Assembly (NCBI RefSeq): GCF_004210375.1
Contig: NC_134831.1
Span: 1,302,001-1,366,000, forward strand
DNA: 64,000 nucleotides
Source: Tachypleus tridentatus
Taxonomy: Eukaryota; Arthropoda; Merostomata; Xiphosura; Limulidae
Direction of reading: 5' to 3'
Shown here: positions 9,301 through 35,640 of the stretch, piece by piece
How positions within the stretch are numbered: position 1 is the first letter of the stretch
How the letters are laid out: the number at the start of each line of letters is the position of its first letter
Notes under the pieces: generated by a model
What the model saw: only the letters and a program-made list of their open reading frames with translations
Told to the model about the DNA's origin: nothing
The model's database searches: none
Translations under genes and position numbers: made by a program

Positions 9301-9815
9301 AATTAAATATGTGGATTACATTATACGACACAGTAAAAAGATAACAACAAAAGCTTGTAGTGAAACGACCACTGTCAGAGAAGGAAGGACAATTATGTGA
9401 AAAACAAGAATGGATCATTATTCCTTCGAGGGGTGTTAAGTATTGGCGTAAAAAATTAGAAGAAAAAACATTTTGAAATGAGTTGTTTATTGTTGTAAAT
9501 AGCAACTATACCTGAAATAGCGTTTTAATAGTAGATGTTTGTGTTTTTCTTGTTCTATTTTCTTATAACTGTCTATACCGGTATTGTTTTATGTATGTAT
9601 TGCGACTTACTAGTTTTTACGCCACTTACATTCCACTTGGAGTGTATTAAATATCCTCTATGGATGTTTACAGTAACTGGTAGGTATGATAAAAGTATTT
9701 AAATGTTGTGTTTCATAGGAACTTGGAAAAACTCTGAGTTAAAAGTACATAAGACTTTCTTATCTAATGGAAATATATATAAAATAATATATTGGTGCAG
9801 GAGGTTAAGAAACAG

Positions 9816-10063
9816 CAATACCTGCTGGTCAGAAAATCATTCCAATACTGATGGAACTACTGGAAAAACCAACTTCTCCAGTGTTCTTGAAAGTTCAGAT
9901 TTTAAAGTCGCTCTCGGAGTTTTGTATTGGCTGTAATGAAAACAAGGAACTGGTGAAGACATATGGAAGACTGCAAGCTCTTGTGAATGCTATAGACGAC
10001 GTTGGACATCCTAATAACTGGGCATGCTACTCTCTGAGTGTGATTATCGCCGGAAATTTGCAG
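9816..10063 (+). CDS. ARM-like gene, penultimate exon
   Basis: Reads in the frame of the ATG at 9851 and ends at CAG|gtgatt with phase 0. It encodes about 82 residues with two helical-hairpin-like units. The 5' border could be 9810 or 9816; no pyrimidine tract precedes either acceptor. Confidence 0.5.
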
Positions 10064-10664
10064 GTGATTTTTCTAATATTTTATTTGATAGCTAATATGT
10101 GAACACTTAGAATACTGATGAACGTTTCCTTTCCAAGTCCATTATTTTAAATTATCAAAACATGACACGTAAGTGCTCTTCTACATATAATTTTCTTTCT
10201 CGATATAAGGTTAAGTGGTCCTTTCTGAAAACGGTTTTATTCAGTGTATCAACGGGATCCGCTTTTGTAAAGTTGATCACTAAAACTGTGTCACTAATAA
10301 ATATAACTTTTGAACTGAAAGGACTGATAATAGATATAACATAAATCAATATCTGACGTGCTAAAATGTCCTTTTTGGTTTTACAATAGTCACGTTTGAT
10401 TGTTTCTGATTACTTTTGCATGTGTCTGTGCAGATGATGAGTAGTGTCTTGCAGATAGAAGGCGTTAAAAAAGTTTTGATTAGGGCCGCCGAGGATGATG
10501 ACAGGTGGAAACATTGGCCAGAAAATCAGGCTATTTTAATTCTGAAGGTATTGTGGAGTGAGGACTGGAGTTTAAATGCGCCGCACTTAAATCAGATTCG
10601 TCGGTCTTCTTTAGTAACAAAAGCTGTCACGGCTTTCAAGCTAAAAACGGTGACTAAAGTTTAG
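9816..10664 (+). CDS. Armadillo/HEAT-like helical repeat protein, C-terminal part (two exons)
   Basis: Two plus-strand exons, 9816-10063 and 10434-10664, join in phase 0 across a GT-AG intron (CAG|gtgatt ... gtgcag|ATG). The product has amphipathic helices typical of ARM/HEAT repeats, for example KIIPILMELLEK, FLKVQILKSLSEFCIGC, LQALVNAIDDVGHPNNW and GVKKVLIRAAEDDDRWKHW. It ends at a TAA at 10662-10664, and an AATAAA at 11021 is a possible polyadenylation signal. Upstream exons were not found with confidence, so the N-terminus is missing. The first splice acceptor is doubtful: an in-frame TAA at 9806-9808 forces a start after 9808, yet the better-looking acceptor (gtgcag, ending 9800) leads into a different frame that stops at 9849. 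The gene may therefore be frameshifted or use a weak acceptor. ARM/HEAT assignment rests on the pattern only; I cannot name a family. Confidence 0.5.
10434..10664 (+). CDS. ARM-like gene, last exon
   Basis: Follows acceptor gtctgtgcag and continues in phase 0 from the previous exon: 76 codons and a TAA. A possible internal donor (CTGAAG|gtattg near 10548) would drop the last 38 residues, but the open frame continues with plausible protein sequence, so the terminal-exon reading is preferred. Confidence 0.5.
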   Translation: MMSSVLQIEGVKKVLIRAAEDDDRWKHWPENQAILILKVLWSEDWSLNAPHLNQIRRSSLVTKAVTAFKLKTVTKV

Positions 10665-11865: not shown

Positions 11866-12130
11866 TTTTTCAATTTCGCGCAAAGCTACTCGAGGGCTAT
11901 CTGCGCCAGCCGTCCCTAATTTAGCAGTGTAAGACTAGAGGGAAGGCAGCTAGTCATCACCACCCACCGCCAACTCTTGGGCTACTCTTTTACCAGCGAA
12001 TAGTGGCCGTCACATTATAACGCCCCCCCTCACTGCTGAAAGTGCGAGCATGTTTGGTGCGACCGGGATTCGAACCCGTGACCTTCAGATTACAAGTCGA
12101 ACGCCTTAATCCACCTGGCCATGCCAGGCC
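11866..12130 (-). mobile_element. SINE-A
   Basis: Well-preserved reverse copy; head end reads CTTAATCCACCTGGCCATGC. Confidence 0.9.
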
Positions 12131-15403: not shown

Positions 15404-15446
15404 ATGCCAGAATTAAATCAAGTATGTAAACGACAGGCCAATGATG
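15404..15446 (+). CDS. Paralog 1, exon 1 (43-nt micro-exon with start codon)
   Basis: ATG CCA GAA ... GAT G ends at a near-consensus donor (GATG|gtaagt) with one base carried over. It encodes MPELNQVCKRQAND plus the first base of a Gly codon. It fits the phase of the exon at 16572 exactly. Confidence 0.6.
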
Positions 15447-18400
15447 GTAAGTTTGCATTAATTTCAGTGTCAGTAGGTAGCCTGAAAAGTGTATAGTGTT
15501 AGGCTTAGACCTATAATATAAAGAACGTTTATGTTTAGGATCTCACCCATGATCAAAACGTCTATCTTAGCTATTATAAAGTTGTTACTTGTAATATAAT
15601 ACTATTAATCAGTAAGTAAATACAAAACAAAATTATTAAAATTAAACAGTTCATATTCAAATTGTAAACAGTTGTAAATTGTGTGTAATATTCGAACAAA
15701 ACACGCTGTAAACATTGTGATTTCGATATTACGTATTTATTCAAATTAATTACACTTATATTAATTAAGGCCCATTTGGGGCCCCTAGCTTTAGGGGGCA
15801 ATTTGACGCTGCTTAACTGGCCTGCCCAGAAGTTTCGATATCGATTGTAAGTTTGAAAAAAATGCCTCCTCGGCAATGACATCGTACAGATAAAATAAGC
15901 TTGGGACATTGTTTATGTATGTTTTAACTGGTAAATTATGAGACTTCTACGAACATCGTGCAGTAAACTTGAACAAAAGTATGCTGTACCAGTTCATTCA
16001 CATATGGTTTAATACATATAGGTTCAAGTCGGAAGTCTGAGTAATTTGTTTTCTGCAGTCGATAAGAGTTGGAAGTGGGTAGTTTTGACTAGCTGTTTTC
16101 CCTTCTGTCTACTACTTCGAAATTAGAGATGGTTAGAGCAGATAGTACTCGACTAGTTTGGCACAAAATTAAAATGTGTGTTCATACTTAGCCTATTTAT
16201 AAAGCAGCAGCTTCTGTTGTTAGGAATATGTTTGTCTTATGTACGACAACAAATTTCCAACTTCCAGTCCTTTGTTTACCATGAAACTTTGAAATATGGC
16301 CCTTGAAACGTTACTTAATTCACTTTATAATTTTTACGAGTTTGACTTCCGTTTCACACATTTCAAATTTTAAACAATGAGAGTCAAAATTTAAATTAAA
16401 AAAATATTTCAAATAAACATTTGCAAGGCAACAAAATTTCCGATAAGTATGGTGTTTCATTACATCCGAGTTCATTCAAATAAATATATTGTTGTTTCGT
16501 ATAGTTTTGGACTGTGAGTAACTGATTTAATGAACAAGAAATGCTCATCTTTACTATGTTCACTTCCAAAGGAATTAATGAGCATATTCAGATGAACCAG
16601 GCAGAGTTATTTCAGCAGTTAGAAGTTCGACTTACGATGCAGATGGAGTCTGTGGAGAGGACAATAAAACACTTGGACTGTAGGTTCGAAAAGGTTCGTC
16701 TTATAAGAAATATGTTTTAGTTATTCTTTCCGAAATATGAATATAGCATAAAAATACTCCACTAGTAGATTTAAAAAATATATGTATCAAATTGAACTAC
16801 GCCTTGAAAAATATATCATATTATAATAGTTTAACTTGAGGATTAACGTAACGCCCAAATAATGTTACTGGAACTTTCTAATATTTGATTGTGTTTTTGT
16901 ACTAAAAAGAAAGAAATTTTTACTATTCTGTATGTTTACATCTCTTCGCTGCTGTAGATGGAGTGGTAGATAATAAGAAATGAGTTAAGGATTTCACGTT
17001 GATGTGTTTTCTTTAAAGTAACAGTTTACTCGCAGAGACGCGAAAAACATTTACGGTCGAATTACTTTCTTTATTTGCAATATTACTTCTGTAAATACGG
17101 GATTTCTAGAATAATGCAAAGGAATTGTAATCGCAGACATCGAAAACTATACGTTTTTCTGTCTTGGGCCTAACGTAAGTTAAGTCTGTCTTAACATAAT
17201 TGAGTACCATCTGTATTCGATAAAGATAATATTGTAACGTATGTTTTTGTGCTTTAGTTAGAACTAAACTTTGCCGTAACTAATACTATTAGTAAATAAA
17301 TGTATAACGTTATTCTACGACATAATATTAGATTTTTAAAAACTTTATAGGCTTTCAAGTTTTGTTGTACAAAATGTCTGCTTAAGTATATTTACATCCA
17401 CCTATTGTTTACGTTCGTGAGATTAAGCGCTAACTCATGCGTATTAAGATTGTAAAGCGTCAGAGTATTATTTGAAGGACGGACAAAAACTGAACGTTAT
17501 TATACTAGATTTACAAGTTATGAAGATGAGTTCGTGTTATTAGATACTTTAAACAGGTATATTGGGAAAATACATATATTAAAAGGTATATCGCGCGTTA
17601 ATAATGTAATGACAAACGTCAAGATACCCAAGTAAATGCGTTTTTAGCATTTTAAATACCGTGCTATTGTGAACCTACATAAAATTTCTCTTTTGAAATC
17701 CTCTATATAGGTATTCTTGAAGAAACAGCACCAAGTGTTTATTTGAAAGATTTCAACCCTTGTTTTTCTAAAATTATAAGTACAAAATAGTCTTATTAAC
17801 TTTAACACGTGTATGATAACGTTTAAACTATAGTCAAAATGGCTTTGGATTTGTTTTTATGGGATGTTATTGTGCTAGCTGGTGCCACTAACTTTTATAC
17901 CGAATGCTTTGTTGCCGTTTTTTATTCCTGTATTTGTATTTTGTCTAAAATGTTCAGAAATGCTACCTCACTCACTTTGTATGGCTAACGAAAAATATTG
18001 TTCAAGTAAAGTTTAATTGGTGTGATACTGTGTTGTAAAACGACCCCCCCCCCAGCTATTTATTCGTAAATGCGGTGTTTTAATTTCTGAATGTTATTAC
18101 TTTTATTCATAGTTATTTGTACAATGGGTTTGAAACATGTCTATATTGTCTTGTTTGTTAGCATGGATTCGTTCTTTCCATTACGTACGATAAAGACTAC
18201 GAAAGGAAACAGATTCGTTTGTTATTGTTTTTTTTTAATGTTCTGGAAATACATTATATTTAATTATTTGTTTTAAAAACGTTCATGAACTTAAAGCTCA
18301 TTTCATTAATTGGTCGTTTTCCACCATAACGGCATCAACTACGCTTATAATTAAAACCCTGGCCTGATGGTTAGGGCGCTCGACTTGCACTCTTCGCGAT

Positions 18401-21400
18401 CGTAACCTGTCGTCAAACATGCTCGGTCTTTCAGCCATGGGACTTTATGATATGACGATTATTTCAACTACTCATTGGCAAAGATTAACTCAAAAGTTGG
18501 GAGTGGTTGATGCAAAATGCCTACCTTCCCTTTAGTCTATCACTTCAGTAGTAACAAAATTAAGGCTCCAGTGAGCTACACTGTATGTGTGTATGGATAC
18601 CCGAAAATACTTGCAAATAATGTAGGACAGATGAAACATACTTACACTTGGATTCGAGAAACAATACAAGTTGCTCTCAGATGAATACACTATAAGTAGA
18701 AAATGGTAAAACTGGTTTAAAAATAGCATTTACGAATGTGTAAAAAAATATTATTTAGTAGCTGGAGTATTCGTTCCCTGAAAGGAAGTTATGCAAATTC
18801 ATGATTAATGAAAAATTATCTTAGGACAAGAAGAGTTGCTTCCCTTGCTTATAAATGGGGAACAAAGCGTCCATAAAAACTGCAAAACACAATATATGTG
18901 TAATCACAATTTTGTACGTGTTTCCCCAAGGACCCAATGAAACTCAATACCAAATTTGATGAAGTTCCATCCACAAAAGGTGAGGTAGTGGTAAAAATCA
19001 CATAAAAATTGCAAAACTAAAAATTCGTAGTTCCCCATGGATCCAATGAACATCCATACTAAATTTGATGAAGATCCATCCACACCTTGCGAAATAGTTG
19101 CATGGACAGACATCAGAAATTACTATTACATTTATATAGATATATGAATAGATAAATTTACTTATCTCCACGGTCTCAGAAGTATATACTTCTCTTGATG
19201 GCAAAATCAAATTGTTTTCCACGCTGATATGATCTTTTATCATTTGAATTTTTCTAGTGAAATAAAACTATCCTGTTATGTGATTTATAAATTACTGTGA
19301 AATCAGATCTCTCGTTGAGAATTTATTCATCAGAGCTTTCGTAGACAATTCTATAAACAATGCACAGTAGTCATGAGAACAACCTTGAATTTTGTAGACT
19401 ATCTAAAACAGTATTTGAAGATAACCATAAATTCTGTAGACAATTTTCAGGAGATTTTGAGGACAGCCTTGATTCTGTGGATGTACTACAGTAACCTCTG
19501 AAAACAGCCTTTAAATTTGTAGACGATCTACAGTAACCACTGAAGACAACCTTTAAAATAAGGAGCCCAAACGACATCTATGCTAAAATCATTCCATCAC
19601 TGGATGCTCTGAAAATCGATTTGGGTGATTTTTTTAGGCTACGCAGTTTTAATTTTCAGTTCTAAACTGGGTTTCTCATTTTATTTTTCATTTTTTATTA
19701 TTTAAATTTATTCTCTATTTTTTGGTCAATCTTTCAATCTTTATATTCGTGCAACGTTTCGTTGTTGCTTTTAAATAAACTTATATATACATATATATAT
19801 TTTTTTTTCCAGTTAATATGTTCTTCTTTCTTCTCACTGTCAGTAATCACAACACTTACCTTTGTTAAAAACGTGTGTTGATTTTTTCTGTTGTAACGGG
19901 AAATCACAGCACAGTAAACTTATTATTTTATTTACAGGCTAAAACAGTCATATTAATGCAACGAAAGTTTTGGAACATATTCATCTCCTTCAACTGGTTG
20001 ATATTTCCTACCTTGGTGTCTGTTGTGTTGGGAACTTGTTTTGGTCATACGTCAGTTATTTCTGAAATTCAGGTGTGCTTTTATGACGACATAAGCTATT
20101 TTTCCTAATGTTTATTTGTTACAGATTCTGCAAATGAACAGTCTTCTAGCTATACAGTCAACGTTTTAATTATATTTAGGAAGATTTACAGTATACACTT
20201 TTGTATATATATATATTAATGTATTTCGATTCTGAAATGTATAGTAATTGAAATATTTATAAAAACCATAAGTGATGCACAGACACACAGAGGAATCATA
20301 AACAAGAAGTAATTACGGGTATACGGTTAATTTTATGAATGGAACAAAATAATGTCATGGAAAAACAAAACAAAAAAACGTATAAGATGTGTATTGCACC
20401 AGTGTCTTTTTATGTGAACCTTTTACCTTACCCAAACATACGCCTCCCAGTGGCTCAGCGGTATGTCTGCGGACTTACAACACTAAAAACCAGGTTTCGA
20501 TACCCGTGGCGGGAAGAGCACAGATAGCCCATTGTGTAGCTTTGTGCTTAATTCAAAAACAACAACAACACAAACATTATACTTTCTCTGCATGCTGCCA
20601 TACAGTTTATCAACGTACGATTATGAAATATTTTTCCAAATATTCTGTATTGGCCCTAAGTTATTTGGTTGCTTTTCGATATTCTAGATTTTTATATAAT
20701 CAATAAAGTTTCGAAAATATATGTATGGGGACTTTGTGTGGGCTAAACCATAGTTGCGATTGTTCCATTGACGTGTTTATCGTTAATATATCGTTTCTCC
20801 ACATTTGCTATATGCTTAAAATCACTGGCGTGGTAGAATATGTGTATACTGATCCAGCGGGAAATTTGTAGAACTAGCTTAAAAAATAACGTTTCTCTAG
20901 TGGCTATATTATTCTGTTCTGCCTTCATGTAAGAAATGCTGTCATACACTTTGAAGAAGGGACAAATGAATATAATTATGTGAGGCACAGACTGAGCATC
21001 GCGATGAACCTCAGTACTTAATTTATAATATACAATTTAGATTAAAAATTAACTGAAAACACTTTTGTTTTATTAGAAGTGTTATAGAAAATGGTGATGG
21101 ATCTTTGTCCAATGGTTTACGTTATTTGTTTGTAAATCAGAAAAAAAAATCCTTATTTATACATGTCTAAAATATTGTTCAGTTGTTTTAGTTATATTAG
21201 AATGACCAGTCCTGTAGAGCGCTAGTCGCTCGGGGTAAATCCGACATAGTAGAAAGTATCTGCCCAATGTCTTAATGAACTCAGTAATTTTGTCGGTGAT
21301 ATGAATGGAGGTTGTTTAATTTTGTATAATATATTATGTCCAGTCTGTTTATTTCTTTTCTCTGAGTAAGTTAGTTTAGTTGAATTAGAAACCCTATGAA

Positions 21401-22400
21401 TTATTCTTTTATTTTTTCTAGAAATTAATGTGATTTTACACTTAATCAGACAGATATTTAATGTGTTTATTGCATATGTACATGAGAGATATATTTTTTA
21501 AATCGTAGCTAGGGAGCGACAAGATTTTGAAAATGTTAGAATTGTGATTAAAACCTCAGTATGTCCAAGATGACCAACTAAATAATTTTCACAGAAAAGG
21601 TTAGGGCTGGCATGGCCTAGCGCGTTAAGGCGTGCGCTTCGTAATTTGAGGGTCGCGGGTTCGCGCCCGAATCGCTCCAAACATGCTCGCCCTCCCAGCC
21701 GTGAGAGCGTTATAATGTGACGGTCAGTCCCCCTATTCGTTGGTACAAAGAGTAGCCCAAGAGTTGGCGGTGGGTGGTGATGACTAGCTGCCTTCCCTCT
21801 AGTCTTACACTGCTAAATTATGGACGGCTAGCACAGATAACCCTCGAGTAGCTTTGTGTGAAATTCCAAAACCAACCAACTAACCAGAAAAGGTTTTCCG
21901 AAGTAGTTGAAGCTACATTTGTTGAAACACGCATAAATTGAAAATTATTATTTCAGTAATTTTTCACGTTTATCCATAAGCTAGCTCTCTTTTTATTTAC
22001 TCTAACAAATAATACTTATGTATGACCCGGGTCACAGTAATACACTTCATTATGTAATTCCATATAAATACTTCGTAGTTTAATATCATTCTTGTATTCA
22101 GTTCTGATTATACTGAGTTTGAGAGAGAGAGAAAAAACTGTTATTTTCCTGATATTTATTTGTAACGTGAACCAATATATACTGCAGGTTATGGTGGCTG
22201 CTCTTCTGATGCTGTCTGTAGTGGTTGGAGTCCCTTCTTATATTGTTGCTCTCAGAGAAATAAAAACCTACACTAAAGAGATCAAAGAAAGATCAACGTC
22301 AAGAATACGTAATGCTTCTTATACACATCAGCGCAGTGTTAATGACATTAAAAACACCGAGTCAGGTAATGGATCTGCTACATCTGAAAGTGACAACTAG
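15404..22400 (+). CDS. Unrecognised two-membrane-pass protein, paralog 1 (four exons)
   Basis: Model: 15404-15446, 16572-16693, 19938-20072 and 22188-22400, giving 170 residues and a TAG. Intron phases are 1, 0, 0 and all borders are GT-AG. The start ATG has an A at -3. Residues 1-15 come from a micro-exon; residues 16-55 are charged and helical (MNQAELFQQLEVRL) and may form a coiled coil; residues about 70-90 are a membrane segment containing FNWLIFPTLVSVVLG; residues about 101-122 are a second membrane segment with VVVGVPSYIVAL; the tail is basic, then Ser/Asn-rich. No signal peptide is visible, so a membrane hairpin with both ends on the same side is inferred. AATAAA at 22704 could end the transcript. 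I do not recognise the family. The tandem gene at 25750-33867 has the same exon plan, which strongly supports the model. Confidence 0.68.
16055..16175 (+). mobile_element. SINE-A body fragment
   Basis: GATAAGAGTTGGAAGTGGGT, GACTAGCTGTTTTCCC and AAATTAGAGATGGTTAG are left; no head. In paralog 1 intron 1. Confidence 0.65.
16572..16693 (+). CDS. Paralog 1, exon 2 (helical, charged)
   Basis: Acceptor cttccaaag; two bases complete a Gly codon, then 40 codons end at GAAAAG|gttcgt in phase 0. The segment is Glu/Gln/Met/Leu-rich with hydrophobic spacing suggestive of a coiled coil. Confidence 0.62.
18358..18550 (+). mobile_element. SINE-A, diverged and truncated
   Basis: CCTGGCCTGATGGTTAGGGC head, AACATGCTCGGTCTTTCAGC, ends before the GGACGG segment. 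In paralog 1 intron 2. Confidence 0.7.
18905..19115. repeat. Imperfect direct repeat, about 100-bp unit
   Basis: Two units share CCCAATGAA / TCCAATGAA, then CAAATTTGATGAAG / TAAATTTGATGAAG and CCATCCACA. It resembles part of a dispersed repeat; no protein signal. Confidence 0.5.
19378..19560. repeat. Degenerate tandem repeat, about 42-bp unit
   Basis: Four to five units of the form ACAACCTT.AATT.TGTAGAC followed by a CAGTA-rich half. It lies in paralog 1 intron 2. Confidence 0.5.
19938..20072 (+). CDS. Paralog 1, exon 3 (first membrane segment)
   Basis: Acceptor tatttacag, 45 codons, donor ATTCAG|gtgtgc; phase 0 at both ends. Carries FWNIFISFNWLIFPTL, which aligns with LWNAFTNFNWVLSPTL in the exon at 30379. 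Confidence 0.7.
20084..20394. repeat. Intron segment duplicated at 32247-32548
   Basis: Begins 12 bases after the exon 3 donor of paralog 1 and matches 32247-32548 in the same orientation with about 17 differences over roughly 290 aligned bases by eye. Shared marks include TTGTTACAGATTCTGCAAAT and ATTACGGGTATACGGTTAAT. Confidence 0.85.
20441..20577 (+). mobile_element. SINE-B, well preserved
   Basis: CCTCCCAGTGGCTCAGCGGT, ATGTCTGCGGACTTACAACA, AGGTTTCGATACCCGTGGCG, AGCACAGATAGCCCATTGTG, then CAACAACAACAC. In paralog 1 intron 3. Confidence 0.85.
21605..21895 (+). mobile_element. SINE-A, GC-rich head subtype
   Basis: Head GGCATGGCCTAGCGCGTTAA, well-preserved body, A-rich end. In paralog 1 intron 3. 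Confidence 0.9.
22188..22400 (+). CDS. Paralog 1, exon 4 (second membrane segment and basic tail)
   Basis: Acceptor actgcag; opens with VMVAALLMLSVVVGVPSYIV, then a basic and Ser/Asn-rich tail to TAG. The VPSY motif matches IPSY in the exon at 33592. Confidence 0.7.
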   Translation, partial: VMVAALLMLSVVVGVPSYIVALREIKTYTKEIKERSTSRIRNASYTHQRSVNDIKNTESGNGSATSESDN

Positions 22401-22703
22401 GTATTTCCGGTAGAAATTTAAAGTCAACCAAATCGGAAAGATAGGAGAGGATAAATACGCATTTGTGGATACAGATTAGGGTTTTAGTTTTACAAAATAT
22501 GAAGAAATTAACATTTTACGGTGGTTAATATTTCTGGAAGGTGTAGAAAAATCTAGGATTGGATTAGAATTACTAAATGTGGAGACTCGGTTATTCTACA
22601 AGAAGTATTTATCAAACATAATGTCATTATTTTTAATGCTTTCCTTTGTTTTACTTAAATGTGTATAACAGGTTTTTGTAAAAAAAAATTTTAGAAATCA
22701 TTA

Positions 22704-22709
22704 AATAAA
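22704..22709 (+). terminator. Possible polyadenylation signal of paralog 1
   Basis: AATAAA about 300 bases after the TAG at 22400. Position is reasonable; usage is inferred. Confidence 0.35.
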
Positions 22710-22851
22710 ACAAGTAAATACAAATCGTTCTTTTGTAAAATGTATTAACTGATTTATATTGTAATTTGGTAGAAAACAACACACCTATAATATTTAGAAA
22801 CATTTAATTACGAATATATTATTTTGTCACAATTATCTCACTTCTATCCAA

Positions 22852-22892
22852 CGACATGGCCTCGTGGTTAGGGTGTTTGACTGACATTCTAA
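22852..22892 (+). mobile_element. SINE-A head fragment
   Basis: ACATGGCCTCGTGGTTAGGG followed by unrelated DNA. Confidence 0.4.
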
Positions 22893-23077
22893 ACTAAGGT
22901 TAACGAAGTATACCAGTTTAAAATAACAAGAAATTGAAACTGTCCAAGTTAATAGTATCGCATACTTTTGTAAGGATTAAGCCTGATGACAAACTTCGAT
23001 AATAAACATACATACGATTTTTATGTAGAGTACAAAAAGCACATTTTCGTGAAAGAAAACATGTAAATTAGCTTTGG

Positions 23078-23175
23078 TTGTTGCTGAGAGCAAAACTACA
23101 CAAGAAGCTGTCTGTACACTGTCTATCACTGGTTTCGAAACGCAATCTTTCACATCGTAATCCTGTAGTTACCAC
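23078..23175 (-). mobile_element. SINE-B, diverged
   Basis: AGCAAAACTACACAAGAAGC, ATCACTGGTTTCGAAACGCA, ACATCGTAATCCTGTAG. Confidence 0.5.
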
Positions 23176-25749
23176 CGAAAAGCATAAACTAAGCTAAATT
23201 TAAGCAAATCAGAATTGAATAAAAGCAGATTTAAAAGTGGTAAGCATAAACCAAATTATAATGTAATACAATTTAACGAATTAAATATTTAAGATATATT
23301 AAAATATATCACAAAACAGACAACTTAAAAAATCAAGCTCTGATTAATAAATTATAAGGTTCAGCACAATTTATATTAATAAAACCTTCAATGCGAAACA
23401 ATACAATGTCCTACCAAAATACTGACAAGGTAAACTAAACTGCATATAATTACACACCAGGAATTCTCACATACTATCTTCTCCTATTTCCAAAGATCTG
23501 GAATAATGTTCTCTTTTAGTGAGTTTGGAAGGACGAGACAATAATTTGGATTTTGGATAACTGGCATGGTTTTTCACCTCTTTGTAATGATTCTCGGTAA
23601 TTACTTGTTTATTATTTCATCCTATTTATTATTTCTAACAGCGTGTTGGATTGGATTTCTAGGTACTAGTCACGAGGTTTTAATAAGGTGATGCCAAGCA
23701 GATTGTAATAGTTTCTGTTTCAAACATATTTCTGGTGGTGGCCTGGATGAGCAAGAGTTATATGTACATTATACAATTTTACTAGAACTGAGGGCAAGTA
23801 CCCTGAAAGATCAAGAAGGTTGAATAATATCATTCCAGCCTGAAAGATGGTCCCTGATTTAGAACAGAAGAACTTTTAAGCCTGTAAAAATACCTAGGTT
23901 TCAGAATTAAATTGAATATATACTAGTGAACCAAAGAGAAAAGGTTACAGTAAATAAAGTTGTGACCACAAGAGGAGAGACTTCTTATTTTTTCAACGAT
24001 TTCAAATATGTTACAAGTATCGAGTGGGTATATACATGCCTGATAAATGCTGGATCACTCACTAGATTCTAAAATGATCCAGCAAGCAAGAACCATAGTA
24101 AGAGGAGACCGTGTTTTTCAAAAAAAAGTAACTATATTTAATTAATTTTAAGAATGGGTTAGATTGTCATATTAAAAACATGTACAATGTACCATCACTG
24201 ACCCCATTTCGCAGCTTATTCCTATTTGGCAAACGAAGATTATGAGGACACTCTTGTTAGTATATTCATTAAGGGTTTGGTAAACGACACTAACATACTA
24301 CATAGTAGAACAAAGTCAAATGTCCCGACTTTAGGCTGTTATGAAATAATCTTGAAGTACGTTCACGAAAAACACAATTTCAATGATGGTGTCTAATGTG
24401 GGAGCGCCAGAGGAATCATCTGAAACTAAATATTGATTAAAGTGCCACAATAATGTCCTCTCTGATGCAGATACCAGGAATAAAGGCAGAGAGTAATGAC
24501 TGTTGTAGAGGTAATAATGGGCAAAGATTAAGAGTTTACGCTTGTAGCTGCTTTAAGGAGTGCATCTTAAGATTATCAAAAGAGATAGACTAAAGAACGA
24601 TAGTTAATAAACCTGTCTTTTTTCTTGCGAATTGTTTCTCTGATACATTAAGTTATTGCACCTGCAAAGAAAACTCAGTATTGTTTGCAAGTTTGTAAAA
24701 CTTTTGCTTATAAATCAGTATTTGTAATAACTATTTATAATAACTGTTATTATATTATTATATTAAATTATATTGGTGTTAATAAAAAAATTGTGTGTAT
24801 CAAACTTGTTGGCATATATAATAAATTTGATACATATCGACATTTAATTAACTTTTAAATTAAAATAAGAATTTCCGGCTGTTTGAAATCGTAATACGTA
24901 ACATAATATATCAGAGACACGTCCGAAATAAATTATAATACCAAACAGAATATTCTTTTTTGTTTCTTTAAAGGTATGGTAGCGATATGTGGCGCTGTTG
25001 AATTAATTATTAAATCTTAAAGTACATTACACCGTATTGTGTTGCTGTCTCGTAGGCCTGAATTTCTACAGCGATATAAGAAATTTACAAAAAGTGAATT
25101 ATTGACCTTAAAAAACGGGACAGTGAAAGTAAGTAAATAAAAACAACTTTTAAGTTTTGCAATTTTCAAAATAAATGTTAAATGTAGTGCTTGAATATCA
25201 ATACATGTTACAAGTTTCACAAGTGTAAGCCTTCTGTTATTATACTTATTGTTAATAATGAATAGTTAATACTAACACTAATATTACATGATAGTGACAT
25301 GCTAGTATTTACATTATGTGATACTGGTATTCGCTTGGAATTTTGTTGTTTTTAGAAACTGTGAAATGTAGGTTCCTCAAAGACGGTAGGTGTACGCCCA
25401 AGTTTATTAATAGGCCTACAACAGAGGTAGGCTAAATTAAATAGTAACGCACACAATTAGCAATCCTTTACGAATTTAAAAGTCTTCCTACAGTTATGTT
25501 CTAATAGGTATAAATACAAAAATGGTATCAGTTTGTACAGAATCAGTGTCCAACTATATTTTTTTCGTACGAACTCGTCTCTTAAAATATATTATTGCTC
25601 AACAATCTTTTAAAATTGGTTTCCTAGGCACGAAATCTTAAATAATTAAATTAGTTACGGCAGGACGTACACTTATCGAAATGTTCCAGATTTTTTGTGT
25701 GCATACTTAACCTTTCATTAAAACAAAATTCACAAAAACATTTCATATA

Positions 25750-25774
25750 ATGAATGAAGTAACCGAAGCCAAAG
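25750..25774 (+). CDS. Paralog 2, exon 1 (25-nt micro-exon with start codon)
   Basis: ATG AAT GAA GTA ACC GAA GCC AAA G, then donor gtaaat. One base is carried over, which matches the two bases starting the exon at 27963 and copies the phase-1 first intron of paralog 1. Confidence 0.48.
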
Positions 25775-28700
25775 GTAAATCATATTCAAATTTCTAATTA
25801 TAATTTTTAAGAAATCAAGACAAGCCAAAGTATTAATAGTGAAACGTTTGATATTGAATTAACAGTCATTTAGCTTTTCAGGTACATTTCTTGGATTCTG
25901 CGTGTGTAACGTAAAGAATAAATTATTGTATTGAAGGCATTATTTCTAGGATAGTGGTAACAGAAAAAAACAAGAGGGAGTATTTTTAACTCACTGAATT
26001 CAAATATTTGATGAACTAACTGATTACAAGGAATATAAAATAACAGTTATTAATTTAAGTGAATATTTATCACAAAACGATATCATACGTTATACCTTAA
26101 TAAAAACAAAGTTTTACTAAAACATGCATTTTATAAATTGTACTTGCGTATCTACGTGTCATATATAATAAGCATTAAGAAATTTTGCAAAATCCATTGT
26201 TAACCGCAATTGTCACCTTAAATTCATAACGAACATTGTCTGTGGTAATAATTCCCAAATATGTTAGGGATATCCCATTTACCAGACAAATTCCAAAGGT
26301 TGATTTTAAACTAGTTGCTTACACCCTCAACTTCTCAAATTCTACTGTTATTCACCGTGTTCGGCCAGTTGTGGGAAGGCAGTTACATTTCGAAGTTCCT
26401 ACTTTTTCCAAAGTAGAAATGAAATGAAACCACCTTAATATGTATTTCTATTATGTGCCACTCCCAGCCTCCACCCTTACAAAATAATAAAATATCTTAA
26501 ATAAAACGACCTTAAGTAGAACTAGAAGCCCTTAATTTAATAAACCTAATGTTGCTTGTGTTGTTATTTTAGAATTAAGCATAAAGCTACACAACAGGAT
26601 ATCTGTACTCTGCCCACCACGGGTATCGAAACCTGGTTTTTAGCGTCGTAAGTCCGCAGAGTTATTCCTTTACCACTGGGGGGCTGTGTAGGTTAGGAGT
26701 AGAAATAAATATTTTAACACTTACCACTTAACAAGCAAAGTAAACACTGGTGAGTTTAAGCAGATAGAGGTTGAGTCCAGAAGTAAAATATTCTGTGTCT
26801 GTCTGTGTAGGCGCAGATAGCCTAGCTGCTTTGCGCCATAAAACACCAAACCAACCAACCGTCTGTGTGTACACGGAAAGTTCAAAGTGGATTTTTACAG
26901 GTGTTAATTTTGTCCGAATTTAACTGACATGAGGTACGCGTGCTGCAATTTGAGTATCCTCCATATGACCTACCATTAAAACTGTTTCTTTTAAATGTAA
27001 ATCGTAACGTAACCACGTTATTATCCACTCCATTGATAAAACAATAAATTATCACAAAACTTCCTTAGTTAATGAAGATAATTTCCAAACACAAAGTTTT
27101 AAAACAGAGTAATGTAATGTGACTGTTGTACAACAAAGGGTTAAAACTACAATATACAACGCAGTGTTAAGATTCTTTATTGTAATAGTACGTACTTAAA
27201 AATACGTCGAATATTTACCAGAAGAAACGTGGAATTTGTATTTTGAAAAGTTCAGCAAAATCTATTGAAATTAATTCATTTATATTCTTATCACAATGTT
27301 AAATTGTGCTTTTTAATTAAACCCTATTTTAAAAGTGTTACGTAGAATAACACTAGAAAAACTTACATTCGGGCTATTGTTTGGAGCTATAATAATTAGA
27401 AGACACAAGACCTTGAAATGAAAGTGTGATAATTAAATCTTATTTACAGAATATTTGATTAACTTCTTTTTTGTAAGATGTCCTGGTTAAATTACAGGCT
27501 TATAGCGCTAAAATCCAGAATTCGCTTACCCACTGTATACATGACACGCAAAAACAAGGCTTTTGAATAGCGCGACTGGATAAAGATAGATTCGATTTTA
27601 TTCTTTCTTCAACATTATAGTTTATTCCTACAGGCTTAGAGCGTCATTTTATTTTAATTAAAGTTTTAATACACATACCAGCTATCTTTAGAATACAGCT
27701 ACTGATATGAATTTGCTTTGTTTATGAGCTTAAAGAATGTTATAAAGTAGAGACAGGGAGGGGCTGGTGAGGATGTTTGCCCTTGAACCCCTGCTGGCTT
27801 TGGACACTCCTTAGCCAGGTAGCCAAATTGATCTCACATTATTACGTTTAATTAACGAGTAATGTTATAAAATAACACAATGTCTTTCAAGAAATTTCAC
27901 AAAATGGCATTTTATATATGGATAACCGTTATAAATGTATGTAATTAATCTCTGTGAATTAGATGCCATTTCTGTAGAAGATATTGAAGTTATCACAGGA
28001 GTTTTAGAAGACGCCAAAAGCATACTGAACACGATAGAAAGATGTTCAGGAATGGTCAGTGTGAAAATAAATATTTAACTTTTACGTTAGTAGTTTTACT
28101 GAGTCAATTTGCATCTCAAACTGGTTGTTGGCTATAAGTTTCGCTCCAATGCACGCTAAACAAATAATTTGTTTGTCTCAAACGAAATAACATATATGTC
28201 TTCCGTGACATCTTTCAGATGTAGTAATGCTATCCTGCAGAATTACAGAGCTGAGAGAAAATTCGATATACAATTATAACAGCTAGGAAAGTGAAACGAA
28301 AAAAGAATGAGAGAGAAACAGAAGAATTTTGTAATTTCAAAGCAGCTTACAAATTGCAAAGATCGTGCATATTAATTTGGCTTCAAGACATAAATGGCGC
28401 TGGCTGTCTAGCCAATTGGAACCATCGTTACATTGGGACAGAATACTTATTTGTGCTGCAAAGCGAAATTACAGCAGCAAGTATTTAAATAGACATAAGC
28501 ATCCGTAAGTGACCCCACACAGGCGCCGATATGTATACTTTTAATTTAGTGTTACAGTCTGAAAATGTATTTAATATGTAAAGGAAGAGATATCGTTCAA
28601 TTCTGTATTATTGGTACCTAACAGATTTAATTAATTAGATAGAATTACATAAGTTTATACATTTCAGTATTGTCATCATAATCGTATGTTCTACGTATAA

Positions 28701-31700
28701 TTCGTGCTAATTCAGCTATTTTATTTGTTGAAAACTAAATATAACGACTGTTCTCTTAACATTATGTAATGGGTTTACTATTATATATCTATTTTACTAT
28801 CCATGTTTGTTTCAGTTAAATATATATTTAGAAATCAATAGATCTGAAGTGCTATTTTTTTGTACGCGCCTCCGATTTCGAGGCACAGTAACGCATTATT
28901 TATCATTACACTAATAGTATCCCTTAATGGCACAACGATATGTCTACGGACTTACAACACTAGGAACCGGGTTTCGATGCCTGTGGTTGATAAAGCACAG
29001 ATAGCCCATTGTATAGCTTTGTACTTAACTACAACTTACAAAATTATAACAATTACAATGCATTTATAATATTTGTTTTTCTAACAGTTTTTTAGAGTTA
29101 CAAAGACAAATCGATTTTAAAGAAAGGAAGGCAAATCTTACTCAGTAAATAATGTACATGAAGATAGAAACACGATTAAGTTACTGTTACTTCCTGTTAT
29201 TAACTTACGTTATGAATTTAACAGAATGTTCGATAAAGAAATCTAACAGTCTTATCTAGCAAAATCTTAGCTTTATGATTAGTTTTAGGGAAATAAGTCA
29301 TCGAGAAATCCACTTGCTTGTTGTCGAAACCAATGTTTTATTTTAGAATTTCCCAAGTTTAACGAGTTAAGGGAAATGATAGTGCTAAAAGTTTTGTTCC
29401 TTGAGTAATAACAATAAAAAACACTTATTTCTTCGTAAAGCAGAAGACATGTAACAGAAGTTTCAAGTAGTCCTAACTAGGTTGTAATCGTTTTAATTCA
29501 CGCATCATATATCTTTAAAAATACCCTTAAATGTTGGATGATTAGGTAACAGAGTTAATGCAGCAGAAAACGAATTACTCTACATTTAAGAATGTAACAG
29601 AAGAGTTAATAAGGAAGAGAGGGACTCTCAGAGAACTTTTGATCTATATACTCTTAGACTCTTGTTTTCCTATTGTCAGTCCATATTCTAGTGGGATTGT
29701 AGGAGTAGGGTTAGTCGACAGAGCAGGGCTTTCAGGGTAATATCGTTCTCTTTGAGGAGTTTGATCCATGCTGTGGACATTCTATTACACTGCACAACAA
29801 TTTTTTTTAAAAGTTTTGCTTCCTGAAAAGTTTTTGCTGATTGTGACAGGTACCTGGTGGGTATGCACAAATATAGTTTCGGTTTTGCTTCATCACGTAG
29901 GAACTCTGAGAAATAGACAGTTAACTGTTTACTGGCGATAACGTATTTAATTGCGTTTTTGTTTCTAATACGCTATTAAGTTTAACATAATTAAAAGTGT
30001 TTTGCTCCTGATTTTCGTTTGTATTCATGTCCGGTGCATCATGTTGCAGTGTCCAACAGTAGTCAGCAAGCATTGACGGATTCCAGTTGCCCTGATATCG
30101 TTTTTTCATTGTAGCAATGTCCTGGTGAAAACTGAAGATTTCGATGAAACGGTACGTGATGGGCAAATTTGGATGTGATTTTCATGATCAGCAGCCAAAA
30201 ATCTATAAGAAACACCCAACAGTGTTCAAGAAGCAAAATCTTTTTTGTGCAGTGTTATAGTTTTGCGTTAAGTAGGATTAGCACTTAGTAGTAGCATAAA
30301 TTGTATAACTTACTTTGAAAGCTTCATCTTAAACGAATACAAATCGTTACTAGTTTTGTTTTTTATTTTCTTACACAGTTGGAAACCATTTCGACACTTC
30401 AGGAGAGATTATGGAACGCTTTCACGAATTTTAACTGGGTTTTGAGTCCAACCCTCTTAGCACTCCTGTTACTAAACATCATAGGAAGTCTATACGATGG
30501 ACACAAGATACCGTTGTTTATTGCGGTATGTGAAGATGTTTATAAATTAAAACAACACAGCACACCAAACATGCTCACCCTATCAGCCGTGGGGACGTTA
30601 TAACGTCACGGTCAGTCACACTATTCGTTGGTAAAAGAGTAGCCCAAGAGTTGGTTGTGGGTGGTGATGACTAACTGCCTTCCCTCTAGTCTAACACTGC
30701 TAAATTAGGGACGGTTAGCGCAAATAGCCCTCGTGTAGCTTGGCGCGAAATTCGAAACAAACAAAACAACACAGTGATTCCTTTTGCCCTGAAATGGGCT
30801 ACTCTAGCCCCGTGAGCCATATATAAATACACTTGACAATTCTAAAACCAAAATTTCAAGGAAGAGGTTAACGAAACCTGACCCTCCTGGGTAGATAAAC
30901 ACCAATACCCAAATACCTATACAAGAGAGAGAGTGATTCCTTAAGAAAAAAAAAAAACATAAATAAAAAAGGGCAACTTAAGATAATACATAGACATTAC
31001 CCTGAAAAGGGCCGGAGTATTGTGGGTTACTCTGGCCCAAAAGTACTACAACAACAACTTATTAGTAGCCGAGATGAAAGTTAGGTATGGAGAAAGAGGT
31101 CTTGTGCACCTGACCCTCCTGGGTATCTAAAAATTCAACATATCCAAATATCTACAAAGAAGAAGCGAAAGTGATTCCTTCTGATTGGAGACACCCTAGG
31201 TTTCAGAATATCAAAAAGAGTTAAATTACATATTACCATACAATATTAAGCATAAAGCCAACAACAAATTAGAAATTGACAGATACAATCAAATTGTCAC
31301 GGAGTGCCCCCTAAAAGCAGCAAAGGACACTGTACCAAAACAACAACAGAAAACTAAATAACACATGGATTGTTGTAGTTGTTGTTTTGAATTAAGTACA
31401 AAGCTACACAATGGGCTATCTGTGCTCTGCCCACCACGGGTATCGAAGCCCGGATTTTAGCGTTGTAAGTCCGCAGACAATAACACATGAAAACCAAACA
31501 AACAACTAATAATACTGATAAAACAACGAAGACAATAAAGAATACTGCTCATAGCAACAAGAGATATAGAAATAAAAATACAAATTAATAGTATTAGAAA
31601 TAAAATCAGAGCAGAAATTAAATTGCTAAAACAGGAAAAATAAGATAACTTCTACTCCCAACTGAATGAAAAATCAGACCCAAGAAACTTTTGGTCACAT

Positions 31701-33867
31701 CTAAAAGATTTACCAATGAAGTAGCAACAAAAAAGTACCCAACACCAGAAAATAACACCTCAGCGCATACCAACAAAGAAAAAGCTGAAGCCTTCAGACA
31801 ACTACAGAACACTTTTAAAACACGTAATGGCCCAGGCACGAACAACTACTTTTACAATACAGTAAACAATCGTGTAACAAATAACACAGAATTATACAAA
31901 CCATATTTCCCAGTCAATATCAACGACAATAACATAAACGATTGTAATATACTGCTAACCGAAAACATCACAATAACAGAACTCAAACAAGCAGTAAAGA
32001 ACTAAAAAAACAAATCACCAGGAAATGACGGCATACAAGCAGTTCTCATCAAAATAAGGCTAGCCGTCCCTAATTTAGCAATGTAAGACTAGATGGAAGG
32101 CAGCTAGTCATCATCACCCACCGCCAACTCTTGGGCTACTCTTTTACCAACGACGAGTGAGACTGATCATCACATTATAACACCCCCACAGCTGAAAGTG
32201 CGAGCATGTTTGATATGACGGGGATTCGAACACACGACCTTCAGATTGACGACACAAGTTATTTTTCTTAATGTTTATTTGTTACAGATTCTGCAAATAA
32301 ACAGTCTTCTGACTATATAGTCAACGTTTTAATTATGTTTTGAAAGATTTACAGCATACACTTTTGTATATATATTTTAATGTATTTCGATTTTGAAATG
32401 TATAGTAATTGAAATATTTATGAAAAACATAAGTGATGCACAAACACACAGAGGAATCAAAAACAAGAAGTAATTACGGGTATACGGTTAATTTTATGAA
32501 TGGAACAAAATAATGTCATGGAAAATACAAAGAAAAACGTATAAGTTGTGACGGGGATTCGAATTCGCGACCCTTGGGCTACTCTTTTACTAACGAATAG
32601 TGGGATTGACCGTCACATTATAACGCCCTCACGGCTGAAAGGGCGAGCATGTTTGGTGTGACGGAGATTTGAATCCGCGACCATCAGATTGTGAGTCGAA
32701 TGCTCTAACCAGCTGGTCATGCCAGGCCTTAGGTTAGATGTATTTACAGTAAATGGGTTGAGGATGTACTTTGGTGCCGAAGTTGCCAGTAGATATGTGT
32801 AATGTTAGATATCAACAGTTAGGTAAATTGTATATTAAATATATCGACAGTAGTTGGTTGAAGATGCATTTACGTAACACCATTGTCAGCTTATAGGTGT
32901 TCTGTTAAATATAAACACAGGGCCAAAGTGATTAAAAACAAAAAAAAAAACCTTGCTAGTATTCCTAATGGCCATCTTTAACGGACAGATGCTTAGTTTT
33001 GATTGCTGTTTTTCTGTAGCATTTTATTAATAGTTAAAGAAGTCATATTTTTGAATTAATTGTGAAAATAATTCACAATTTATCGTTGGTGAGTGTGATT
33101 TCTTATAGCAAAGCCCCATTGGGCAATCTACTGAGTCTACCGAGGGGTAAAGGTCTCGTCGACACTGGATACAGCAGATATAGTATGATTAACAGATTTT
33201 TGTTACATTCTCCAAGTCGTTCATCAACTTTAAAGGAAATCTTCATTCTCACATACAACGCAGAACGAGGTATATACAACAGCACTGTCTGAATTGCTAT
33301 AACCATGCGTTTATTTCAATCACACATGAATGCATTAAAAATTATTGGGTAACTTTGACCCGATTATCTCTGTTTTAAAACAGAATAATAGTGCCAGTAT
33401 TTAGCCATTAAAATTTTTATTAACATCTAATTTTATCCAAGAAAAATAAGTATTTAAAAATACTTTTAACAAGTTTTTATTTTCCAACTACCAGGCAAAA
33501 AAATATCAAATACGTTATTCTTGAGATTTATAACTCAATTTACAATACTTCAAAATCAGACACTAATCTCCATGTTGTTTTAACACTACAGATTTTTTTC
33601 CGTGTGATTGTTGCCCTACTATTCTCAGTATCGATCGTCAATATACCGAGTTATTATATGGCTATCCTTGCTGTGCTTTGCATTAGCGATGAATACCTCG
33701 AAATTTACGAAAATCTGGTACATTGTGAGTTGGATGGTGACGAGAGCACGATTAGCGACGAGTGTCCGGGTAATTACGATTGGATCCAAGGTCTCGACAC
33801 TAGTGACGACGAAGCCCGGGAGACTAGGGGTATCACGGACCTAGACGAAGCTCGGAAGAAGGTGTAA
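25750..33867 (+). CDS. Unrecognised two-membrane-pass protein, paralog 2 (four exons)
   Basis: Model: 25750-25774, 27963-28054, 30379-30525 and 33592-33867, giving 179 residues and a TAA. Intron phases are 1, 0, 0, identical to the neighbouring gene at 15404-22400. The start ATG has an A at -3. Domains: an 8-residue micro-exon; an acidic helical segment (residues about 9-39); a first membrane segment (about 57-77) after the LWNAFTNFNW motif; a second membrane segment (about 89-116) with NIPSYYMAI; and a long acidic tail rich in Asp/Glu (for example DTSDDEARE). AATAAA at 33920 lies 53 bases after the stop. Introns hold SINEs, retrotransposon debris and a copy of paralog 1 intron sequence. Family unknown. 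A tandem duplication with much divergence is inferred. The micro-exon is the least certain part. Confidence 0.65.
26565..26690 (-). mobile_element. SINE-B
   Basis: AGCATAAAGCTACACAACAG, CCCACCACGGGTATCGAAAC, GCGTCGTAAGTCCGCAGAGT. In paralog 2 intron 1. Confidence 0.82.
26795..26860 (+). mobile_element. SINE-C-like fragment
   Basis: TAGGCGCAGATAGCCTAGCT, GCTTTGCGCCATAAAACACC, then an A/C-rich tail. The reverse complement recurs at 59225-59295. Confidence 0.5.
27478..27545 (+). mobile_element. SINE-B fragment
   Basis: GATGTCCTGGTTAAATTACA, GCGCTAAAATCCAGAATTCG. Degenerate. Confidence 0.35.
27963..28054 (+). CDS. Paralog 2, exon 2 (helical, acidic)
   Basis: Acceptor gtgaattag; two bases complete an Asp codon, then 30 codons to GGAATG|gtcagt, phase 0. 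Encodes sequence such as DIEVITGVLEDAKSILNTIE with regular hydrophobic spacing. Confidence 0.6.
28917..29040 (+). mobile_element. SINE-B
   Basis: TGGCACAACGATATGTCTAC, GGACTTACAACACTAGGAAC, CGGGTTTCGATGCCTGTGG, GCACAGATAGCCCATTGTAT. In paralog 2 intron 2. Confidence 0.8.
29975..30170 (-). pseudogene. Fragment of a dispersed repetitive ORF (HQDIATM...YQGNWNPSMLADYCW)
   Basis: The minus strand encodes IEIFSFHQDIATMKKRYQGN and WNPSMLADYCWTLQHDAP, which I recall as the C-terminal signature of a high-copy uncharacterised protein in arthropod and cnidarian genomes, probably of transposon origin. Only the end is present. The family link is from memory. Confidence 0.45.
30379..30525 (+). CDS. Paralog 2, exon 3 (first membrane segment)
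   Basis: Acceptor tttcttacacag, 49 codons, donor ATTGCG|gtatgt; phase 0 at both ends. Contains LWNAFTNFNWVLSPTLLALL. The shared W-N-x-F-x-x-F-N-W-x-x-x-P-T-L pattern ties it to the exon at 19938. Confidence 0.7.
30558..30770 (+). mobile_element. SINE-A lacking its head
   Basis: Starts at CACACCAAACATGCTCACCC and runs through the complete body to AACAAACAAAACAAC. In paralog 2 intron 3, shortly after the exon 3 donor. Confidence 0.85.
30775..31215 (+). repeat. Two imperfect direct repeats, about 220 bp each
   Basis: Shared pieces in the same order: CCCTGAAA.GGGC, then GGGCTACTCTAGCCC / GGGTTACTCTGGCCC, then CTGACCCTCCTGGGTA, then AGTGATTCCTT. They precede the LINE fragment at 31540 and could be a repeated 5' untranslated part of it, but that link is inferred. 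Confidence 0.4.
31372..31482 (-). mobile_element. SINE-B
   Basis: GTTGTTGTTTTGAATTAAGT, ACAAAGCTACACAATGGGCT, CACGGGTATCGAAGCCCGGA, GTTGTAAGTCCGCAGAC. Truncated at its head end. Confidence 0.83.
31540..32055 (+). mobile_element. Non-LTR retrotransposon fragment (linker to start of RT)
   Basis: Plus-strand pieces in two frames read SDPRNFWSHLK, then TNEVATKKYPTPENN, ITITELKQAVKN, a stop, and KSPGNDGIQAVLIK. The K-S-P-G-x-D-G-I motif marks the start of a Jockey/CR1-type reverse transcriptase. The fragment is frameshifted and is cut off by a minus-strand SINE-A at 32056. It lies in paralog 2 intron 3. Confidence 0.65.
32056..32247 (-). mobile_element. SINE-A, truncated at both ends
   Basis: Starts at GGCTAGCCGTCCCTAATTTA directly after LINE sequence and ends in the head at ACCTTCAGATT, where the duplicated intron segment begins. 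Confidence 0.83.
32247..32548. repeat. Second copy of the paralog 1 intron-3 segment
   Basis: Lies in intron 3 of paralog 2, flanked on both sides by minus-strand SINE-A pieces (32056-32247 and 32549-32735). About 94% identical by eye to 20084-20394. The adjacent coding exons are far more diverged, so this copy is younger than the gene duplication. Confidence 0.85.
32549..32735 (-). mobile_element. SINE-A, rearranged
   Basis: Begins with a short head piece GACGGGGATTCGAATTCGCG, jumps to TTGGGCTACTCTTTTAC, then the rest of the body and a second head. The double head suggests recombination between SINE copies at the edge of the duplicated segment. Confidence 0.75.
33098..33165 (-). mobile_element. 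SINE-B variant fragment
   Basis: TTTCTTATAGCAAAGCCCCA, TTGGGCAATCTACTGAGTCT, ACCGAGGGG. Same variant as at 56675. Confidence 0.55.
33592..33867 (+). CDS. Paralog 2, exon 4 (second membrane segment and acidic tail)
   Basis: Acceptor taacactacag; 91 codons and TAA. Starts with a hydrophobic stretch (VIVALLFSVSIVNIPSYYMA) and continues into a tail with many Asp and Glu. Base composition is GC-richer than the surroundings, as expected for coding DNA. Confidence 0.7.
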   Translation: MFFRVIVALLFSVSIVNIPSYYMAILAVLCISDEYLEIYENLVHCELDGDESTISDECPGNYDWIQGLDTSDDEARETRGITDLDEARKKV

Positions 33868-33919: not shown

Positions 33920-33925
33920 AATAAA
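33920..33925 (+). terminator. Possible polyadenylation signal of paralog 2
   Basis: AATAAA 53 bases after the stop. Another AATAAA lies near 33981. Confidence 0.35.
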
Positions 33926-34384: not shown

Positions 34385-34880
34385 ATGTATTTTGATGCAA
34401 AATATACTACATCTACTACACTTGAAGGGTCCCAACAATTTAAGGATCTTGATGTAAAATGTATTACATCTTCACCAGAAGGGTTCCAACAGTTTAAGAA
34501 TCTTGATGTAAGATGTATTACATCTTCACCTGAAGGGTTCCAACAGTTTAAGAATTTTGAAGCAAGATGTACTTTACTTCTACACCTGAAGGGTCCCAAT
34601 AGTTTAAGGATCTTGATCTAAGATGTATTACATCTTCACCTGAAGGGTTCCAACAGTTTAAGAATCTTGATGTAAGATGTATTATATCTTCATCTGAAGA
34701 GTTCCAACAGTTTAAGGATTTTGAAGGAAGAGGTATTACATCTACACTTGAAAGGTCCCAACAGTTTAAGGATCTTGATGTAAAATGTACTACATCTTCA
34801 CCTGAAGGATCCCAAAAGTTTAAGGATCTTGATATAAGATGTATTACATTTACACCTCAAGGGTCCCAACAGTTTAAAGA
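34385..34880. repeat. Minisatellite, about 54-bp unit, about 9 copies
   Basis: The unit contains CTTGATGTAAGATGTATTAC, then ATCTTCACCTGAAGGGTTCC and AACAGTTTAAGAAT. Copies differ by a few substitutions. The period is a multiple of three, so it leaves open frames on both strands that are not evidence of a gene. Confidence 0.9.
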
Positions 34881-35106
34881 TTTTAAGAAAGAATTTTGGT
34901 TCTCATATGTACAACTGTACTTAACTCTTTTAAATCTATCTACAGACTGTAGGGCTTAACTCGCTTTGCACTCTTTATATATGAAGAAAAATACTGGGTC
35001 TGATGAAAATGTATGTAAATTTATTTTCCTCTATGTTTTCCAAAAATACAGCAATTTTGCTCTTGCCTTTCAAATTTAATATGGATATAATGTGTTTTTT
35101 TTTTTC

Positions 35107-35261: not shown

Positions 35262-35640
35262 GCTTGACGTTATGATTGGTCACATGTAATATTCGTTTTA
35301 GGTTATGATTGGTCACACGTAATATTCGTTTTAGGTTGTGATTGGTCACATGTAATATTCGTTTTAGGTTGTGATTGGTCACACGTAATATTCGTTTTAG
35401 GTTGTGATTGGTCACACGTAATATTCGTTTTAGGTTGTGATTGGTCACACGTAATATTCGTTTTAGGTTGTGATTGGTCACATGTAATATTCGTTTTAGG
35501 TTGTGATTGGTCACACGTAATATTCGTTTTAGGTTGTGATTGGTCACACATAATATTCGTTTTAGGTTATGATTGGTCACTTGTAATATTAGTTTTAGGT
35601 TATGATTGGTCATATGTAATATTAGTTTGAGATTGTGGCT
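35262..35640. repeat. Minisatellite, 33-bp unit, 11 copies, each with a CCAAT box
   Basis: TGATTGG recurs at 35273, 35306, 35339, 35372, 35405, 35438, 35471, 35504, 35537, 35570 and 35603, exactly 33 bases apart. Most units contain the inverted repeat GTGATTGGTCAC; on the minus strand this reads GTGACCAATCAC, a good match to the NF-Y (CCAAT) consensus. Open frames here are by-products of the period. Confidence 0.92.

Follow-up and report, generated by a model that had tools for sequence, protein, structure and literature searches.

A tandem pair of candidate genes for small two-pass membrane proteins in the horseshoe crab Tachypleus tridentatus, with a second copy on another contig

A 64 kb stretch of the Tachypleus tridentatus genome (C7:1302001-1366000, hereafter the window) carries two neighboring plus-strand gene models, A and B. 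We read them as real genes that arose as a tandem pair long ago and encode small membrane proteins with two passes, most likely serving as hairpin-anchored helical adaptors or subunits. Judged from sequence, we give this reading a probability of roughly 60%. The two genes are homologous, share the plan of exons 2 to 4 and recur as a second pair, A' and B', on contig C12, and the comparison of B with B' reveals purifying selection. The original prediction, that a small membrane protein with two passes and a helical N-terminus was duplicated locally, fits these results, in that A and B are homologous and each protein has two main hydrophobic stretches.

Results

Both four-exon models, with GT-AG borders and intron phases 1, 0, 0, could be rebuilt as they had been proposed (Table 1), and their predicted products of 170 aa (gene A) and 179 aa (gene B) agree with the size of 170-180 residues given before. 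The paired motifs FWNIFISFNW and LWNAFTNFNW, PTL and PTL, and VPSYIVAL and IPSYYMAI are present in A and B, respectively. The exon plan had been called identical, which holds for exon number and intron phases but not for exon lengths, as exons 2 and 3 measure 122 and 135 nt in A and 92 and 147 nt in B. Scored with approximate weights, the exon-2 donor of gene A (AAG/GTTCGT) reached 5.03, which corresponds to the 93rd percentile of plus-strand GT and is the lowest among the six donors of the window models, and the exon-1 donor of gene B reached 7.48. Exon 1 of either gene is proposed as a guess: the further support for these first exons (14 and 8 codons) consists of the loose pattern M.E.[STND][QEDN], drawn up after those exons had been viewed, which finds a candidate at three of the four loci and among none of the 56 candidates examined at A'. 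No counterpart of gene A exon 1 was found on C12.

Table 1. Features of the window, with counterparts on contig C12 where these were located (window positions; a slash marks the exon/intron border)
Feature	Position	Strand	Details
Gene A, proposed exon 1	15404-15446	+	ATG; 14 codons + 1 nt, phase 1; donor G/GTAAGT, 99.4th percentile of plus-strand GT
Gene A, exon 2	16572-16693	+	Predicted helical N-terminal part; phase 1 to 0; 122 nt; donor GTTCGT weak
Gene A, exon 3	19938-20072	+	Predicted first membrane segment, FWNIFISFNW..PTL; 135 nt; counterpart C12:5164958-5165092
Gene A, exon 4	22188-22400	+	Predicted second membrane segment, VPSYIVAL, tail, stop TAG; counterpart C12:5168869-5169126
AATAAA 3' of gene A	22704-22709	+	Weak evidence, DNA AT-rich
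Gene B, proposed exon 1	25750-25774	+	ATG; MNEVTEAK + 1 nt, phase 1; donor G/GTAAAT
Gene B, exon 2	27963-28054	+	Predicted helical N-terminal part, SVEDIEVITGVLEDA; 92 nt; counterpart C12:5185768-5185859
Gene B, exon 3	30379-30525	+	Predicted first membrane segment, LWNAFTNFNW..PTL; 147 nt; counterpart C12:5186626-5186772
Gene B, exon 4	33592-33867	+	Predicted second membrane segment, IPSYYMAI, acidic tail, stop TAA; 276 nt; counterpart C12:5189096-5189407
AATAAA 3' of gene B	33920-33925	+	Weak evidence, DNA AT-rich
ARMH2-like armadillo gene exons, upstream	9809-10664	+	Pfam ARMH2 E 7.4e-05, just below curated cut-off
PROPPIN exon, downstream	50316-50552	-	Pfam E 2.2e-11
Tandem array	34389-34892		Units 54/164 bp
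Tandem array	35269-35637		Unit 33 bp
Tandem array	43986-44260		Units 56/111 bp
Tandem array	46590-47355		Units 92/184 bp
Tandem array	62945-63586		Unit 51 bp

By sequence comparison, A and B are clearly homologous. BLASTP aligned the two proteins with 23 of 85 residues identical (E 1e-9, as a single comparison), and their Smith-Waterman score of 121 was reached by none of 2000 controls shuffled in blocks of ten residues, a procedure that preserves local composition. Because these controls do not reach the A-B score, the likeness extends beyond a mere common hydrophobicity. The scores of A with B', A' with B, and A' with B' were reached by 1, 0, and 0 of 2000 shuffles, respectively.

Searches of the genome (2.17 Gb in 205 contigs) with the two proteins led to C12. 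Protein B matched at C12:5186623-5186793 (exon 3, E 3.0e-10), 5189096-5189257 (exon 4, E 5.7e-6) and 5185767-5185898 (exon 2, E 1.3e-5), and protein A at C12:5168848-5169072 (exon 4, E 2.1e-5) and 5164958-5165095 (exon 3, E 0.014), while exon 2 of A, compared with the C12 DNA by tblastn, matched at 5164248-5164325 (E 1.4e-4). Exons 2 to 4 of both genes accordingly have counterparts there, in the same order and on one strand. Exons 2 and 3 of B and B' are equal in length and phase, with 23 of 30 and 24 of 49 residues identical, and exon 4 differs in length (276 vs. 312 nt). Exon 3 of A' has the length of its counterpart in A, and exon 2 of A' starts at C12:5164246, with the acceptor phase and the distance to MNQAE as in A. 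The features by which we delimit the family, namely starting phases of 1, 0, 0 for exons 2-4 together with the motifs FNW/FTW..P and P[SD]Y..A, all occur in A, B, and B'; A' shows the motifs as well as exons 3 and 4 and has the acceptor of exon 2, but lacks its donor.

The same correspondence emerged from a comparison in which the gene models were not used. Here, 2559 window frames of at least 15 residues were set against 110 kb of C12 with repeats masked (13.1% of the window and 11.6% of the C12 sequence), and the best 25 of 153 matches were inspected, a search that would miss exons as short as exon 1. The top five matches were B exon 3, B exon 4, A exon 4, B exon 2, and A exon 3, each with its own counterpart. 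Exon 2 of A ranked lower (24.3 bits, E 0.022); because a few weak, unrelated matches outrank it, the masked comparison alone is no proof of a counterpart for this exon, which relies on its place and on the tblastn match. The other matches among the best 25 were weak, scattered, or extra frames of the same family exons, and the longest unrelated one (window 24670-24855) contains stops on the C12 side, is inverted, and lies 40 kb from B'. Two earlier comparisons of the window had covered 40 kb of C12, a section excluding the counterparts of A exons 2 and 3; one was swamped by repeats resembling short interspersed nuclear elements (SINE-like repeats), and the 45 rows of the other did not include B exons 2 and 3. 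Taken together, A and B look like real genes because an old duplicate on C12 keeps the same main exons.

B and B' are identical at 80 of 167 aligned residues, and over the joined exons the ratio of the proportions of nonsynonymous and synonymous differences (pN/pS) is 0.40 (bootstrap 95% 0.32-0.50) with synonymous sites saturated, so that gene B, by this measure, is under purifying selection. For the individual exons, pN amounts to 0.114 (exon 2), 0.266 (exon 3), and 0.408 (exon 4), and since exon 2 has the lowest value, the predicted N-terminal helix would be the most constrained part of B. Exon 2 of A and A', taken alone, has 16 of 39 residues identical (pS 0.873, pN 0.389); it was omitted from the joined figure for A and A' given below because the exon-2 junction is doubtful.

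Each protein has two main hydrophobic peaks, with the stop codon after the second; third peaks reach 1.68 in B and 1.34 in B'. The tails of B and B' are strongly acidic (net charge -14 and -21), and those of A and A' carry +2 and -3. A heptad-like pattern of hydrophobic residues begins in exon 2 and continues into exon 3; it was equalled by 75 of 5000 shuffles in B and by 309 of 5000 in B', which we regard as suggestive for B only.

That no named family is known for this pattern, as noted before, is borne out, as Pfam and Protein Data Bank (PDB) sequence searches yielded nothing convincing. No Pfam match above cut-off was obtained for A, B, A', or B'; below threshold, B matched DUF4175 (E 0.36) in addition to the receptor family discussed below, A matched DUF2207_C (E 0.04), and one other member matched Nas2_N (E 0.0046). 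In the PDB sequence search, A found two designed proteins (E 0.059 and 0.17) and B had no match. The family profile gave as its best PDB matches the first hairpin of the palmitoyltransferase DHHC20 and phospholamban, at chance level (E 0.56 and 0.77); what they share with the family is a hydrophobic stretch resembling the profile, whereas the models contain no DHHC domain. Among viral and prokaryote contigs, 66 and 38 pattern matches, respectively, included no confirmed relative. A further genomic candidate, C10:39369240-39369497, resembles exon 3 of B and B' (E 0.78 and 0.69; LW..FT..W), but the splice phase at its start is mismatched by eye and the resemblance is probably due to chance, as we also take other weak genome matches (E 0.05 to 5, with internal stops) to be. 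No paper on such a membrane-hairpin family was found in the portion of the literature that was accessible. The family is thus apparently without a name in the libraries searched, and elsewhere its proteins may well carry the label of uncharacterised proteins.

Origin and genomic neighborhood

Because the whole pair recurs on C12, the tandem duplication that gave rise to A and B predates the copying of the block. The horseshoe-crab lineage is known for several whole-genome duplications, and the copy on C12 possibly stems from one of them. One exon was searched for each of two neighboring genes: the ARMH2-like gene gave no second genome copy at E 0.01, and the PROPPIN exon, which we take to be of the WIPI/WDR45 type, has a second copy at 89% identity on C9, not on C12.

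A 309-nt stretch in intron 3 of A (20084-20391) is repeated at 91.9% identity in intron 3 of B (32247-32550), flanked by two SINE-like fragments, and a 278-nt probe taken from it has just two matches in the genome, in the introns of A and B. As this repeat is far younger than the divergence of A and B, it represents a late local copy and no trace of the original duplication. The SINE-like repeat itself, up to ~270 nt long, has many copies in the window, including the introns of both genes (21599-21883, 30561-30773, 32059-32252, and 32570-32729 among others). One copy coincides in part with a tRNA-Thr prediction (12055-12130), so the head of the SINE may be tRNA-derived. The first of the tandem arrays in Table 1 starts ~0.5 kb past gene B. 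In the genome as a whole, coagulin (PF02035), a protein known from horseshoe crabs, has 19 matches, all above the family cut-off (best E 1.5e-25), and it has matches in 0 of 14 control genomes, which marks the genome as that of a horseshoe crab.

Discussion

Under the reading that we prefer, a local duplication produced the A/B pair and a later event placed a copy of the entire pair on another chromosome. Each protein would consist of a helical N-terminal segment, a membrane hairpin with FNW..P in its first segment and PSY..A in its second, and a hydrophilic tail. The hairpin would hold the protein in the membrane, while the N-terminal helix, whose sequence is the best conserved in gene B, would dock onto a partner or onto further copies of the same protein, such that the protein may contribute to a membrane complex as an adaptor or accessory subunit. 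Since the N-terminal helices differ, A and B would have different partners; the fast-evolving tail would be less specific.

Several observations weigh against this reading. The end of A' exon 2, as read from the sequence, offers no in-frame GT donor and the exon-3 donor of A' is weak (2.83, 83rd percentile), because of which A' may be broken or spliced otherwise. Over exons 3 and 4, A and A' share 42 of 115 residues with a pN/pS of 0.74 (0.57-0.96), which is near relaxed, and gene A appears to be weakly constrained. In A and A', where 678 and 3429 of 5000 shuffles equal it, the heptad pattern lacks significance, and in B, B', and A' exon 2 taken by itself has a best register other than that of the joined segment. 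By eye, the second hydrophobic stretch of B runs for ~35 residues, from where exon 4 starts through IPSYYMAILAVLC, and may form more than a single simple pass. Finally, the adaptor role is a best guess drawn from conservation pattern and layout. Gene A is less well supported than gene B. The pair provides firm gene models for RNA-seq and proteome searches.

The layout, together with a weak Pfam match placed on presumed segments 5 and 6, led us to pursue a relationship with gustatory-type chemoreceptors (7tm_7, PF08395), of which the family would represent degenerate or specialised pieces with membrane segments 5 and 6 only. Residues 32-117 of B matched profile positions 207-290 of 370 at E 0.12 (12.1 bits against a curated cut-off of 26.6), such receptors are numerous in the genome (69 matches listed), and these likewise have a helix ahead of a membrane hairpin; however, the Pfam scan returned no 7tm_7 match in the other three family members. 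On a receptor profile made from 23 frames of 30 loci taken from the 69 listed matches (seven loci had no stop-free frame of 330 residues and were dropped, and some of the 23 frames are without the last segment), B' scored 5.0 bits and was exceeded by only 7 of 245 of its own shuffles, whereas A' (1.1 bits), A (-0.1), and B (-2.1) fell inside the bulk of theirs, with 173 of 249, 177 of 250, and 163 of 243 shuffles scoring as high. A profile-profile comparison of the family with the receptors gave 16.0, which at least 10 of 60 shuffled controls surpassed, scoring up to 27.6. Moreover, segments 1-4 and 7 of the receptors were not found in the family, whose proteins end after the second of two main peaks, while several receptor matches in this genome cover almost all of the profile within a single open frame. 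Having failed at the Pfam cut-off, the same-genome profile, and the profile-profile controls, a gustatory-receptor origin was rejected as very improbable.

That exons 2 to 4 belong to a larger, multi-pass membrane protein of which other exons were missed is somewhat less improbable, though we still consider it unlikely: exon 1 of both genes is a proposal, the introns are kilobases long, and a hydrophobic-frame search found weak membrane-like frames upstream, yet no further conserved membrane exon occurs among the best 25 of 153 masked window/C12 matches, which makes a two-pass protein likelier than a fragment of a larger one. The missing exon-2 donor of A' and the near-relaxed ratio of A and A' would also suit chance exons or pseudogenes; against this speak the constraint on B and B' despite saturated synonymous sites, the open frames, the preservation of phases and of exon 2 and 3 lengths, and the fact that five of the six family exons head a comparison independent of the models, so that we give this explanation very little credence. 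Ninjurins have amphipathic N-terminal helices and two membrane helices, and they assemble and open membranes. An oligomerising hairpin acting like ninjurin would agree with the similar size and layout of the present proteins (small, with a helical N-terminus and two membrane segments), but none of the four members matched the Pfam ninjurin family, which we take to be PF04923, up to E 10 in a search whose HMMER filters drop most weak matches, and such an activity seems very improbable. Possible, if doubtful, is a hairpin family restricted to chelicerates or horseshoe crabs in which the two paralogues would be paired subunits of one membrane complex and would for that reason have stayed together during copying of the block.

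Orphan small membrane proteins are common, and the weight of the present pair depends on its function and on the breadth of the family. Read as an old tandem pair of two-pass membrane protein genes, A and B add to the horseshoe crab an apparently unnamed family of membrane proteins, one member of which (B/B') is well constrained.

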